A DNA stretch of 64,000 bases from positions 1 through 64,000 of the forward strand of contig NZ_AWNH01000038.1 of NCBI RefSeq assembly GCF_000482245.1, read 5' to 3'. Under the pieces are notes generated by a model. The model was given only the letters and a program-made list of their open reading frames with translations. It ran no database searches and was not told where the DNA came from. Below are positions 8,056 through 35,462 of the stretch, piece by piece. Each line of letters opens with the position of its first letter. Position 1 is the stretch's first letter. The position numbers and the translations under genes were made by a program. Origin of the DNA: Leptolyngbya sp. Heron Island J. Its GTDB lineage: Bacteria; Cyanobacteriota; Cyanobacteriia; Phormidesmidales; Phormidesmidaceae.

Positions 8056-10422
8056 TTAAGCATTGAGAGCTTTTTCTATGGCGTAGCGCCAGCTATCGGC
8101 CATAGTGGCAACGTCTAGATTGATCAAGGGCTGTTGCTCAGGCCCCTGGATTGTCAACGGCGTATCAGCCTTAGTGACTGTACCAATATTGGCCCATTGG
8201 TCCTGTAGCTGGTCGCGCAGGTAGTTTTCCCACTGGGCTTGGTGGGTCGGCATTACAGTAACGAGAATACGGGCACCACCTTCGCCAAATAAGAGGGTAT
8301 CGTAACGTTGGGTAGTCTTTAGCAATGTAATGATTGCGCCTAGGTTACCACCAATAGAAGATTCGGCAAGTGCGATCGCAACTCCCCCTTCAGCACAATC
8401 ATGAGCTGCTGTAATCCATCCCTGGCGAATACCATAGCGGCAAGCAGCCTGAACCTTTAACTCCAAGTCAATATTCACCTTTGGAGGGCGGCCTGCGACT
8501 TGGTTATGAACTACTTTTAGATATTCTGATGCCCCCAGAGTCACCTCACCGGCAGCACTCTCCCCTAGAGGCGTTCCCAGCAAATAAATCTGGTCTCCAG
8601 GATTTTGCCAGCTTTGACCACAAATCTGATCCAAATCATCGATTACACCGACCATGCCAACTACTGGCGTGGGATAGATAGGCTGAGGCTGCCCTTCACC
8701 ATCAACAGTTTCGTTATAAAGCGACACATTCCCACCCGTGACTGGCGTATCAAAGGCACGACAGCCATCCGCTAGCCCCCGACAAGCCTCAGCCAGCTGC
8801 CAATAGCCCACAGGCTTCTCAGGACTACCAAAGTTCAAGTTATCAGTTACCGCAATCGGTTCAGCACCGACACAGCTCAGGTTACGAGCCGCCTCTGCCA
8901 CTGCCGCCAAGCCTCCCTCATAGGGGTTGAGATAGACATAGCGAGGATTACAATCCGTAGTGGCCGCCACACCCGAGTTACTACTGCTACCGTCATCTCC
9001 CTCTAGGGGGCGTAATCGTAAAATCGCTGCGTCGGCACCACCTGGCAGCATTACCGTGTTGTTTTGTACCTGATGATCATATTGGTGATATACCCACTGT
9101 TTTGAAGCAATGGTGGGCGTACCCAGCAGCGCCAGCATGACATTATTCCAAGATTGACCGTTGACACCAACTAAGGAATCATCCGGCAAATCGCTCTCTT
9201 GCCAGCTCCAGGCAGTTTGAGCATAGGCTGGGGGCTCTGATAGAATCTCGCGCTCATACAGCGGCGTATTATCCGCCAGGGCAGATGCCGGCACCTCAGC
9301 TGCCACCCCACCTTGAAATAAAATCCGCACAATGGGTTCTTCGATTACCTCACCGGCAACCACAGCATGGAGCCCCCAACGCTCAAAAATCTCGATCAGC
9401 TCCTGTTCACGGCCTTTTTCACCCACAAATAACATACGCTCTTGGGACTCGGAGAGCAGATACTCATAGGGCACCATGCCCGTCTCCCGCACGGGGATTT
9501 TATCCAGGTCTAATTCAATGCCAACACCGCCATTCACTGCCATCTCAGACGTGGAGCAGGTAATACCGGCAGCGCCCATATCCTGAGCAGCCACAACAGC
9601 GCCGGTTTTAAATGCCTCTAGACACGCTTCAACCAAAGACTTTTCTAAAAATGGATCGCCTACCTGTACGGCTGGGCGATCAGCCTCTGACTCGTCTGTT
9701 AGCTCGGCACTAGCAAAGCTTGCCCCACCCATGCCGTCGCGTCCGGTGGTAGACCCCACATAAAGCACTGGATTACCGATGCCCGATGCCCCAGATTTCA
9801 CAATCTCCTCGGTTTCCATCAGACCGATAGCCATGGCATTAACCAGGGGATTGCCAGCATAGGCCGGATCAAAGTAGATTTCTCCACCAACTGTGGGAAC
9901 ACCAAAACAGTTGCCATAGTGGGAAATCCCTGAAACCACCCCAGCAAAGATCCGCCGTGTGTTCGGATCATCTAGGGCACCAAAACGCAGAGCATTGAGC
10001 GCGGCTATGGGACGGGCTCCCATGGTGAAGATGTCGCGTAAAATGCCACCCACCCCTGTAGCAGCCCCCTGAAACGGTTCTACCGCCGACGGATGGTTGT
10101 GGGACTCAATTTTAAATACCAAGCGCTGACCGTGGCCGACATCTACAACACCAGCGTTTTCCCCAGGCCCCACTAGGATTCTTGGTCCTTCCGTCGGAAA
10201 CTGCTTAAGCAGGGGCCGAGAGTTCTTATAACAACAGTGCTCTGACCACATCACCCCGAACATACCCAGCTCAGCCCGATTGGGATGCCGTCCTAAACGT
10301 TGGACAATTTCATCATATTCGCCCGTTTTTAAGCCTTCAGAGGCAATTTCTTCGGCAGAACACGGAATTGAGGTGGGTACGGTCGTAGACATTAATAGGG
10401 AGGAGTTGACAGGGGTGGACAA
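8056..10422 (-). CDS. purL: Phosphoribosylformylglycinamidine synthase, PurL subunit
   Basis: Fourth step of purine synthesis: FGAR to FGAM with ATP and glutamine-derived ammonia. At 788 residues it is the small bacterial PurL, which needs separate PurS and PurQ partners, neither seen here. Motifs: [15 protein letters not shown] near residue 60, [20 protein letters not shown], and [16 protein letters not shown], all typical of the PurM/PurL ATP-binding superfamily; [19 protein letters not shown] lies in the second half. MSTPVNSS is the chosen start; MSTTVPTS, ten codons in (10392), is possible. purL leads into purF, probably as one transcript. Confidence 0.96.
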
Positions 10423-10534
10423 GGGTTGATTTTAAACCGTCTTTGGTGAATCTAGCGTGTCCTAGTCAGAACAGATACAGTTATTCCCCTAGCTATCAGG
10501 CAGGCACGGCCAGTGCCTAATGCTTACTCACATT

Positions 10535-10573
10535 AAAAAAAAACCGACAGAACTCCCGCGAGTCCTATCGGCT
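10535..10573 (-). terminator. Rho-independent terminator, minus strand
   Basis: On the minus strand CCGATAGGACTC pairs imperfectly with GAGTTCTGTCGG and is followed by nine consecutive T. It ends transcription from the right, before purL. Confidence 0.85.
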
Positions 10574-10614
10574 GGTTGTGTGTTCCCTGTAGATGACTCG
10601 GCTAGAGTTGAGTC
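10535..10614 (-). ncRNA. Candidate small RNA downstream of a CRP-like site
   Basis: Read on the minus strand this has the layout of a trans-acting small RNA. A 5' hairpin GATGACTC/GAGTCATC (10617-10592) is followed by an unpaired stretch rich in A and C (CAGGGAACACACAACCAG) and then a terminator CCGATAG...CTGTCGG with nine T. A -10-like CATACT at 10626-10621 predicts a start near 10614. A perfect CRP-type palindrome is centred about 64 bases upstream. No protein frame fits. It lies between purL and the HAS-barrel-like gene. Alternative: the terminator simply ends the HAS-barrel-like gene 180 bases upstream. Confidence 0.38.
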
Positions 10615-10670
10615 ATCCTTAGTATGCTGAATTTACCGGAGGCTGATGGCGATCTGAGTCATCGTTGACC

Positions 10671-10686
10671 TGTGATTTTGATCACA
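10671..10686. promoter_or_regulatory. Perfect CRP-type operator
   Basis: TGTGATTTTGATCACA matches the CRP/SyCRP1 consensus TGTGA-N6-TCACA at all ten conserved positions. Further half-sites (TTTGATCACA, GGATCACAAA) follow within 40 bases. It sits upstream of the small RNA candidate and of purL on the minus strand. NtcA (GTA-N8-TAC) does not match. Confidence 0.6.
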
Positions 10687-10755
10687 TTTGATCACATTTT
10701 TCTTGATTTGGATCACAAATGTCTGCAAGTCTTGACATTAAACGGTCTTAAAACC

Positions 10756-11388
10756 CTATCCCATAGCTCCTAGCGTATTTTTCCAAGTCAGCTCTTTGCA
10801 TAAGACTTGCAAGGCTCGCTGATCGGCATCCGAGAAGAGTCCTGAGTCTCCCAATTCAGTCAATACCTGCTGAGTCAGCTGATTGGCAAAGGTGCCACCA
10901 CAGTTGAGAAGATGTCCGTAATATTTGAACTGAGGCCGGTTGTCAGCGCTGAGGTGAAACTGATGGCGGCGTTTGGCATCCATCCGATAAACCGGTGTAT
11001 TCACAGGCACCACATGACGCGGAATTCCATGTTGGCCATAGGTTTGTTTGCCTTTGTGCACTAAGCTGCCGACCAGCACTACATTGAGCAGAGTTTTTGT
11101 CTCTTGAATGAGGTCGGGAGTAAACAACGGATCAGGCACTCCTGTCAGCTGAGGGCCACTGTTTAAAAAAGCAGGGTTAAATAGCTGTGAGTTATAGACA
11201 ATGCCCACAGCCCAATGCTGTTTCTCTGTCTCTAATGTGACAAACTGTCCAAAGCCATAATCACTAACTTTTGGTGGTTCTATCACATCCCTATCTGTAT
11301 GTAGCTGCACAACATAGTCACAGTGAGAATTTGACTTCACCACTGTGCCTAACTTGCAGTCTTGACCATTCTGCTTGACAGACACCAT
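10756..11388 (-). CDS. HAS-barrel-like protein of unknown function
   Basis: Encodes 210 residues and no signal peptide. The N-terminal 100 residues (KLGTVVKSN, YGFGQFVTLE, WAVGIVYNSQLFNP) resemble the small beta-barrel found at the start of HerA-type ATPases and ATP synthase subunits (HAS barrel), here without any ATPase domain. The second half (VVLVGSLVHKG, GIPRHVVPVNTPVY, QFKYYGHLLNCGG) has a conserved look but no motif I can name. It is a single gene between purL and apcD. The HAS-barrel assignment is a recollection of family pattern, not proof. Confidence 0.65.
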   Translation of the reverse strand: MVSVKQNGQDCKLGTVVKSNSHCDYVVQLHTDRDVIEPPKVSDYGFGQFVTLETEKQHWAVGIVYNSQLFNPAFLNSGPQLTGVPDPLFTPDLIQETKTLLNVVLVGSLVHKGKQTYGQHGIPRHVVPVNTPVYRMDAKRRHQFHLSADNRPQFKYYGHLLNCGGTFANQLTQQVLTELGDSGLFSDADQRALQVLCKELTWKNTLGAMG

Positions 11389-11523
11389 GTGGACACTATT
11401 TTCGACAGCGCCCTTAGCATACCTAAAATAAAGCGGAGAGCACGATCAAATGTACTTCCCGCTCTACAATTCCATTTTAAGACCACCCAACTAGTGACTG
11501 AGCCACCTACCTAAAGGTAATGA

Positions 11524-12012
11524 CTACCCAGCCATAGCTTGAATGATGTAATCAAAATAAGGAGCGGCCTCAGCGGCCTCAGCTTCAGTTAGTAATGCCA
11601 GAGATGCATCTTTAAGGCATTCAATAGCAGCAACCATGCCAGGTACTGGCACATCAAGGGCATTGTACATTTCACGGACACCTACCAGACCAATGCTTTC
11701 AATTGGGTCTTTATCACCTGCAATGATGCCATAGGTTATCAAGCGTAAGTACCAACCATAGTCACGCAGGCAAAGGGCTCTCTGTTTCTGGCCATAGGCA
11801 TTCCCTCCTGGTGCAATGAAGTCAGGACGCCGACGCCATAGAGCCTTACTGGCCTGGTCTACAACCTTCTTCTCATTTTCGGCCAGTTTTTGAGCGATTG
11901 TGAGACGCTGAGGACCTGTTTGCAAAAAATCTTGAATACCCTTGAGCTCGCCGCTGGTAGGATAGCGCAGCTCATCATCTGCATTGAGGATTACTTGGCT
12001 GACAACAGACAT
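11524..12012 (-). CDS. apcD: Allophycocyanin-B alpha-type subunit
   Basis: Minor phycobiliprotein of the phycobilisome core; it replaces an ApcA subunit and acts as a terminal emitter, passing energy mainly towards photosystem I. The 162-residue length is typical. Near-canonical ApcD sequence: [20 protein letters not shown] at the start, the phycocyanobilin-binding Cys in [19 protein letters not shown] (about 81), [15 protein letters not shown] and the tail [10 protein letters not shown]. It is a single gene, divergent from rlmD; a TTGACA on the minus strand at 12095-12090 may belong to its promoter. It looks like the standard ApcD rather than a far-red form. Confidence 0.95.
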
Positions 12013-34736: not shown

Positions 34737-35024
34737 CTGGTGACAAGCTCATCATTGTTGATTAAGCCTATTCTGGCAAAAACACTTAACTTCTTATATA
34801 AAAAAGTAAGAATCATCAGAAGATTTCAGGATAGCTTCAAGAAGATTAAAGTTCTTCCTAAGGGGCTAAACCCTAAATACAATAAGGTTTTCAAATACGC
34901 ACAGAACATCTGACAACAATCACAAATGGTTGTGACAACAATCACAGTGTTGCATCAGGAAGATTTTTTAGAAGATTCATCTTGTCTAAATGCAAAGAAA
35001 TGAAACCAGGACAAATAAATCGAT
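34737..35024. other. Divergent intergenic region with CRP-like repeats
   Basis: Upstream of the TPR gene (minus) and the NTF2-like gene (plus). It contains the 14-base direct repeats TGACAACAATCACA at 34911-34924 and 34933-34946 and a perfect CRP-type site (next entry). The left half, 34780-34880, is AT-rich without a supported gene. Confidence 0.5.
34931..34946. promoter_or_regulatory. Perfect CRP-type operator upstream of the NTF2-like gene
   Basis: TGTGACAACAATCACA has all ten consensus positions of TGTGA-N6-TCACA. The same 14-base 3' part also occurs 22 bases upstream, and TCACA-N6-TGTGA lies between. Its centre is about 86 bases before the start codon of the gene at 35025, within reach of a promoter with a 5' leader. 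Confidence 0.55.
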
Positions 35025-35462
35025 ATGAGTCAAGCAGTCAGTCAAATCCAGGCTATCTATGCAGCCATTAATCGCCGTGATATCGATCAGGCCGTGGCTC
35101 TTATTGATGAGCAATGCTGTTACGAAGACCTCAACTTTACTGCCACGTTTATAGGTAGAACTGCCGTCCAGGGCTTGTTTACGAAGTCATGTCAGTCTGT
35201 GCCAGAGGAGCTCAAATTTGTCATTGATGACATTGCGGGTGACGATTTAGCTGCCGGTGTTACCTGGCATGTTGAACTCAATGGCATCGCTTTTCCTAAC
35301 GGCCGTGGAGTTAGCTTTTATCGCTTTTCCCCAAGCGGTAAACTAACATTTGCCCGTGACTGCGTAGAACCCGCTATTAAGCCCGGTAAATCTGCATTTG
35401 CGATTATCCGCCTGGTTACCCCTCTAGTACGGTATTGGTTGGGACGTCAAAAGAATAGTTAG
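35025..35462 (+). CDS. NTF2/SnoaL-like fold protein
   Basis: Encodes 145 residues in the cone-shaped alpha+beta fold of the NTF2 superfamily: IQAIYAAINRRDIDQAVALI (N-terminal helices), then CYEDLNFTATFIGRTAVQGLF, and the strands LAAGVTWHVELNGIAFPNGR and GVSFYRFSPSGKLTFARD. Members may be enzymes or ligand-binding proteins; the active site cannot be told from the sequence. It ends two bases before the next gene's start region, so it is co-transcribed with the membrane protein at 35465. Likely under the CRP-like site upstream. Confidence 0.8.
   Translation: MSQAVSQIQAIYAAINRRDIDQAVALIDEQCCYEDLNFTATFIGRTAVQGLFTKSCQSVPEELKFVIDDIAGDDLAAGVTWHVELNGIAFPNGRGVSFYRFSPSGKLTFARDCVEPAIKPGKSAFAIIRLVTPLVRYWLGRQKNS

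Follow-up and report, generated by a model that had tools for sequence, protein, structure and literature searches.

An autonomous gene for a non-coding small RNA (sRNA), controlled by a cAMP-receptor protein (CRP) and yielding a base-pairing product, was predicted on the minus strand at 10614..10535 of the analysed window (64,000 nucleotides of Leptolyngbya sp. Heron Island J); the probability of this reading was put at roughly 0.83. A sigma-70-type promoter would be controlled, most likely activated, by CRP bound at −63.5/−64.5, with weaker binding at −41.5. The product of approximately 80 nt would stop at its own terminator, and its unpaired core (AUCUACAGGGAACACAC) would most likely base-pair with other RNAs. 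The features are collected in Table 1.

Table 1. Features of the predicted sRNA gene, its promoter and its neighbours (window coordinates), and candidate partner genes.
Feature	Position	Strand	Basis and remarks
Predicted sRNA gene	10535..10614	−	~80 nt, starting at or close to G10614; block conserved in other genera; no start codon
CRP box TGTGATCAAAATCACA	10671..10686	−	10/10 match, centre −64.5 from G10614; position kept in 91/99 non-redundant relatives
Second, degenerate CRP-like box GATGACTCAGATCGCC	10648..10663	−	6/10, centre −41.5
Further CRP-like box TGTGATCCAAATCAAG	10702..10717	−	8/10, centre −95.5; window's genus; similar sequence in L002–L007
−10 hexamer CATACT	10621..10626	−	CATACT/GATACT at −12..−7 in 77/99 relatives
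5′ hairpin GACUC-AACUCUAGCC-GAGUC	10595..10614	−	Folding; paired in 98.5% of cells across 108 sequences
Unpaired stretch AUCUACAGGGAACACACAACC, 21 nt	10574..10594	−	Folding, alignments
Near-invariant core GGGAACACAC	10587..10578	−	Alignments; core retained in divergent families f26 and f32
Intrinsic terminator	10535..10573	−	Stem 10573–10542 (14 bp), T-tract 10543–10535 (nine T)
purL	8056..10422	−	ORF; downstream neighbour, same strand, outside the RNA
HAS-barrel-like gene	10756..11388	−	ORF; upstream neighbour, same strand; name from the first-pass annotation
Leader-site genes of genus g14 (L239, L241, L242, L281)			

Structure of the predicted RNA

A hairpin, an unpaired stretch and a nine-T terminator within approximately 80 bases, without a fitting protein frame, had been described in the first-pass annotation, and this gene structure was recovered. 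The predicted 80-nt RNA, whose transcription is inferred, folded with −28.7 kcal/mol (z = −4.2; matched by 0 of 200 shuffles), its terminator was called independently by a mechanical terminator search, and no ATG, GTG or TTG was present anywhere in the 80 nt 10614..10535. The core of the hairpin, GACTC/GAGTC, extends to GATGACTC/GAGTCATC given a transcription start slightly upstream.

Comparison of hairpin and loop in related genomes had been proposed as a check, and its outcome was favourable: 11 of the 14 modelled pairs varied on both sides (3.4 in shuffles, 1–6 in slid controls), with changes on both sides at 4 of 5 pairs of the 5′ hairpin and at 7 of 9 modelled pairs of the terminator stem, and the unpaired core GGGAACACAC was almost invariant across the aligned loci. 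The covariation alignment had been fitted to the same structure, so the counts are biased towards it; selection also contributes to the invariance of the core, because many of the aligned loci were retrieved using the core motif.

Distribution and genomic setting

Judged from the window alone, the CRP box is weak evidence and not decisive, with 5 motif matches at no more than one mismatch observed in the 64 kb against 2.0 expected. Conservation across genera was taken as the decisive test for the predicted element. Using blastn with a 281-nt query, matches outside the genus started and ended at approximately query positions 135–226, equivalent to 10626..10535, and the flanks of this conserved block diverged between genera. 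A covariance model (R1), built from 22 sequences, matched the window at 10538–10614 with 94.1 bits and gave matches in 187 of 388 genomes of the class and 87 of 159 genera, often in multiple copies; the count of 187 includes two marginal matches in family f2 (E 0.03 and 0.09). The exact core pattern was found in 106 stretches in named records, and carriers include Leptothoe kymatousa, Adonisia turfae, Nodosilinea nodulosa PCC 7104, Leptolyngbya sp. PCC 6406, Stenomitos and Microseira. Divergent forms occurred in families f26 and f32 (the f32 form reads AACTGAACTCTAGCCGAGTCATTAATAGGGAACACAC), and tandem copies were seen at L123 (four), L138 (four) and L021 (two), most of them with their own CRP box. 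Rfam (release 15) returned no match to E ≤ 1 across 9500–11800, none at gathering score over the window RNA, and none over the RNA at six divergent loci of homologues. No description was found in the literature searched on the core motif, purL or apcD, SyCRP1 together with sRNA, and sRNAs or sponges of Leptolyngbya and Thermosynechococcus. On sequence evidence, the element is a new, uncatalogued and broadly conserved sRNA family, with its expression remaining a prediction. As a separate observation, one divergent f26 genome encodes 6S RNA (L192, 2770–2952) approximately 1.2 kb downstream of its sRNA.

Most lineages have purL transcribed away from the sRNA on one side, and the HAS-barrel-like gene and apcD transcribed towards it on the other. 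Within the window's genus (L001–L008), sRNA, CRP box and terminator are inverted relative to both flanks, and it is owing to this inversion of the whole cassette that the sRNA lies on the purL strand. At 93 loci, the HAS-barrel-like gene or a homologue adjoins the sRNA, in either of two orientations; the 210-aa ORF of the window (10756–11388, −) had no match in Pfam. In Nodosilinea, the sRNA was located at a different locus, beside other genes.

From the window alone, the element could also be regarded as a purL leader with a transcription attenuator, in which the terminator (10542–10573) controls read-through into purL: it precedes purL on the same strand, and by sequence the 5′ arm of the terminator could pair with the 3′ arm of the first hairpin. 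Such a leader was considered very improbable, since purL faces away in most other lineages, where sequence, CRP box and terminator nevertheless persist, the Nodosilinea element is at another locus, and the first hairpin is itself conserved and covarying. Inversion of the cassette argues against both a purL leader and a 3′ UTR. The latter reading, in which the terminator belongs solely to the HAS-barrel-like gene upstream and the RNA is that gene's 3′ UTR, can draw on the adjacent, same-strand position of this gene in the window, but in most relatives the gene converges on the RNA and the promoter elements directly upstream of the RNA are conserved as such, which leaves it barely credible.

A self-contained transcription unit explains the arrangement, whereas neither a purL attenuator nor a 3′ UTR of the HAS gene accounts for it. 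The element has its own promoter, its own terminator and no coding capacity, as expected of a trans-acting base-pairing sRNA, all of them at the level of sequence; at that same level, the small-RNA reading of the first-pass annotation is supported by a cassette that is conserved across many genera, keeps a fixed CRP box and was inverted as a unit. On sequence evidence, the annotation was right about the kind of object, and the evidence is now much stronger than what was visible to its author.

Promoter, putative regulator and known sRNAs

The perfect CRP palindrome which had been recognized before a predicted minus-strand start was confirmed at 10671–10686 (TGTGATTTTGATCACA on the plus strand), and a TGTGAN6TCACA box (at least 8/10) was found at −65.5 to −62.5 in 91 of the 99 non-redundant promoters (0.14 in shuffles). 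The spacing of approximately 64 bases also held, with the box centred at −64.5 in the window and at −63.5 in most relatives; its likening to the −61.5 class I position did not, as −63.5 departs from the classical class I spacing. Over the 99 upstream regions, GTGA and TCAC carried approximately 1.9 bits per base, the immediate flanks near zero. A second, weaker box (at least 6/10; conserved as TGATc...aGATCGC) was present 22 bp downstream, at −41.5, in 81 of 99 relatives versus 8.4 in shuffles. Published cyanobacterial CRP promoters carry theirs at this position, with TGTGAN6TCACA approximately 22 bp before the −10 box (PMC2633013), and this motif is bound by SyCRP1 and AnCrpA (PMC2633013, PMC4284465). 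Activation rather than repression was inferred from the upstream position of the CRP box. Elsewhere in the window, at 34909–34946 (+), two CRP-like boxes were observed 22 bp apart (TCTGACAACAATCACA and the perfect TGTGACAACAATCACA), approximately 80–115 bp before the ATG of a 145-aa ORF (35025–35462); by its sequence, this is another candidate CRP promoter with the same 22-bp spacing.

A matching CRP-type protein (L197) is encoded in the genome, carrying PRST (phosphate-pocket residues RS) and the recognition helix RETVTR and resembling solved CRP/CAP proteins; the other CRP/FNR-family proteins examined, including NtcA (L196; helix RVTVTR), have different helices. As read from the alignment, L197 appears to carry V/N at the positions of T127/S128 in E. 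coli CRP. T127 of E. coli CRP adjoins adenine, and because V apparently replaces it, the cAMP affinity of L197 is unproven. Dependence on cAMP was inferred from the CRP site and the CRP-type protein, without transcription data. The regulator could instead be NtcA or another CRP/FNR-family protein, given that NtcA and further family members are encoded, that the sites of the family look alike and that the apparent V/N in L197 leaves its cAMP affinity unproven. This was judged improbable: the box GTGA...TCAC, at approximately 1.9 bits per base, is the SyCRP1/AnCrpA motif, which has experimental backing (PMC2633013), and not GTAN8TAC, and a CRP-type helix RETVxR was found in L197 alone among the family proteins examined. 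A CRP ortholog was detected in 326 of 388 genomes at a loose cut-off, a far wider spread than that of the sRNA, and a few near-complete sRNA-positive genomes gave weak CRP matches only (e.g. G301, G346, G180); because CRP is nearly universal, its co-occurrence with the sRNA is uninformative.

CyaR is a short intergenic enterobacterial sRNA with a CRP-controlled promoter and targets in trans (PMC11795201). A CRP site at a fixed place of the promoter, a feature of CRP-controlled sRNAs such as CyaR, is present here in a likewise short intergenic sRNA; the two nevertheless share no sequence relation (no Rfam match), and the genes described here have CRP boxes at −63.5 and −41.5 and are often in tandem. 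Yfr1 is similar in size and in its order of hairpin, invariant unpaired motif and terminator, occurs cyanobacteria-wide and likewise lies beside a purine gene (guaB for Yfr1). Its invariant motif CACUCCUCACACC (PMC4734099) is, however, absent from 10614..10535 and from the alignments, where the motif is GGGAACACAC, and its usual locus is guaB/trxA instead of the purL/HAS/apcD locus with a CRP box, so identity with Yfr1 was rejected for want of CACUCCUCACACC and for the wrong locus. The Yfr2 RNAs are likewise widespread, multi-copy cyanobacterial sRNAs; the element is provisionally set apart from them by the lack of an Rfam match, by a different locus and by a Yfr2 motif that is described as nearly complementary to that of Yfr1 (PMC6778093), which the motif here is not. 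NsrR1 of Nostoc sp. PCC 7120 is also a cyanobacterial sRNA under a CRP/FNR-family protein; it comprises approximately 110 nt, carries an NtcA site GTRN8TAC over the −10, is located between alr1709 and all1710 and is found almost only in heterocystous strains (PMC6166021). Identity with NsrR1 was rejected, as no GTRN8TAC was seen over the −10 (CATACT/GATACT) and the CRP box is at −63.5. NsiR1 shares the organization in tandem repeats, but is HetR-dependent and heterocyst-related, its tandem array lying upstream of hetF (PMC3610870).

Candidate pairing partners

Base pairing and the identity of any target are inferred. Seed searches with GTGTGTTYYYTG, GTGTTYYYTGTAGATGA and TGTWGATGACTCGGC gave no shared target in the window's clade: matches beyond the sRNA itself were about equal to the reversed-pattern control for GTGTGTTYYYTG and TGTWGATGACTCGGC and more than twice the control for GTGTTYYYTGTAGATGA, which composition may explain. 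No target recurred when complements of the core were sought within the window's genus and family, and single matches, e.g. in the leader of an MFS gene in G000 and G004 (L248, L250), were weak.

In genus g14, the leaders of four paralogous genes (Table 1) for a secreted protein of approximately 165 aa, one of which was tested against Pfam without a match, were complementary to the sRNA over 15–25 nt. The sites are located 10–35 nt before the start codon and are the complement of sRNA nt 13–37. The G020 site comprised 25 nt, including a single G-U pair (−49.8 kcal/mol, as against about −18 in shuffles), a shorter form was found in G020:C19 (−36.2 kcal/mol), and two G027 genes had one further mismatch in the leader site. 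A complement of the sRNA was also seen inside an inverted repeat of G027:C90 (L255, ~2679–2720; duplex −45.6 kcal/mol), which may be a decayed copy.

An anti-sRNA element with several core complements was located 200–300 nt after yebC, on the strand of yebC, in 11 of 11 genomes of the Thermosynechococcus-like genus g41 and in one genome (G100) of the sister genus g58 (loci L383–L392, L393, L394). Its longest complement includes GTCGGCTCGTGTGTGTTCC and also covers the 5′ arm of the sRNA terminator, and the element stays with yebC where the next gene differs (G164, G131). In G100, it contains five TGTTCC motifs, whereas shuffles gave 0.27 (0 of 500), and the same strand also bears a terminator-like hairpin with a T-run; Rfam gave no match over the element. 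The yebC element fits a possible RNA sponge or a 3′-UTR target. Read from the opposite strand, it would instead be an RNA containing repeats of GGGAACACAC, and the strand of the transcript is undetermined. Neither the g14 leader site nor the yebC element was found in the window's organism, and the region downstream of yebC was without the element in G000 and other families.

A near-invariant unpaired core, the lack of a detected shared mRNA target and the tandem, multi-copy genes would also suit a protein-binding or decoy RNA, in which GGGAACACAC is a protein site. This was considered unlikely, since two lineages have independently conserved complements (15–25 nt in leaders; an element of approximately 20–30 nt after yebC) and the variable sites of the core show mostly C/U and A/G substitutions, which are wobble-compatible and can, as judged from sequence, preserve pairing to one partner base. 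With a base-pairing sRNA as the preferred reading, the wider proposal of a widespread, uncatalogued cAMP-CRP sRNA family, with a dedicated yebC-3′ sponge acting against it in Thermosynechococcus-like species, remains possible, and is put forward tentatively.

The sRNA family merits its own database entry, and the yebC element provides a concrete sponge hypothesis. In cyanobacteria, cAMP-CRP has been linked to motility and nitrogen-related genes (PMC4284465); in the literature searched, no paper reporting an sRNA within a cyanobacterial cAMP-CRP regulon was found. If the proposed reading is true, cyanobacterial cAMP signalling would be joined to RNA-based, post-transcriptional gene control.
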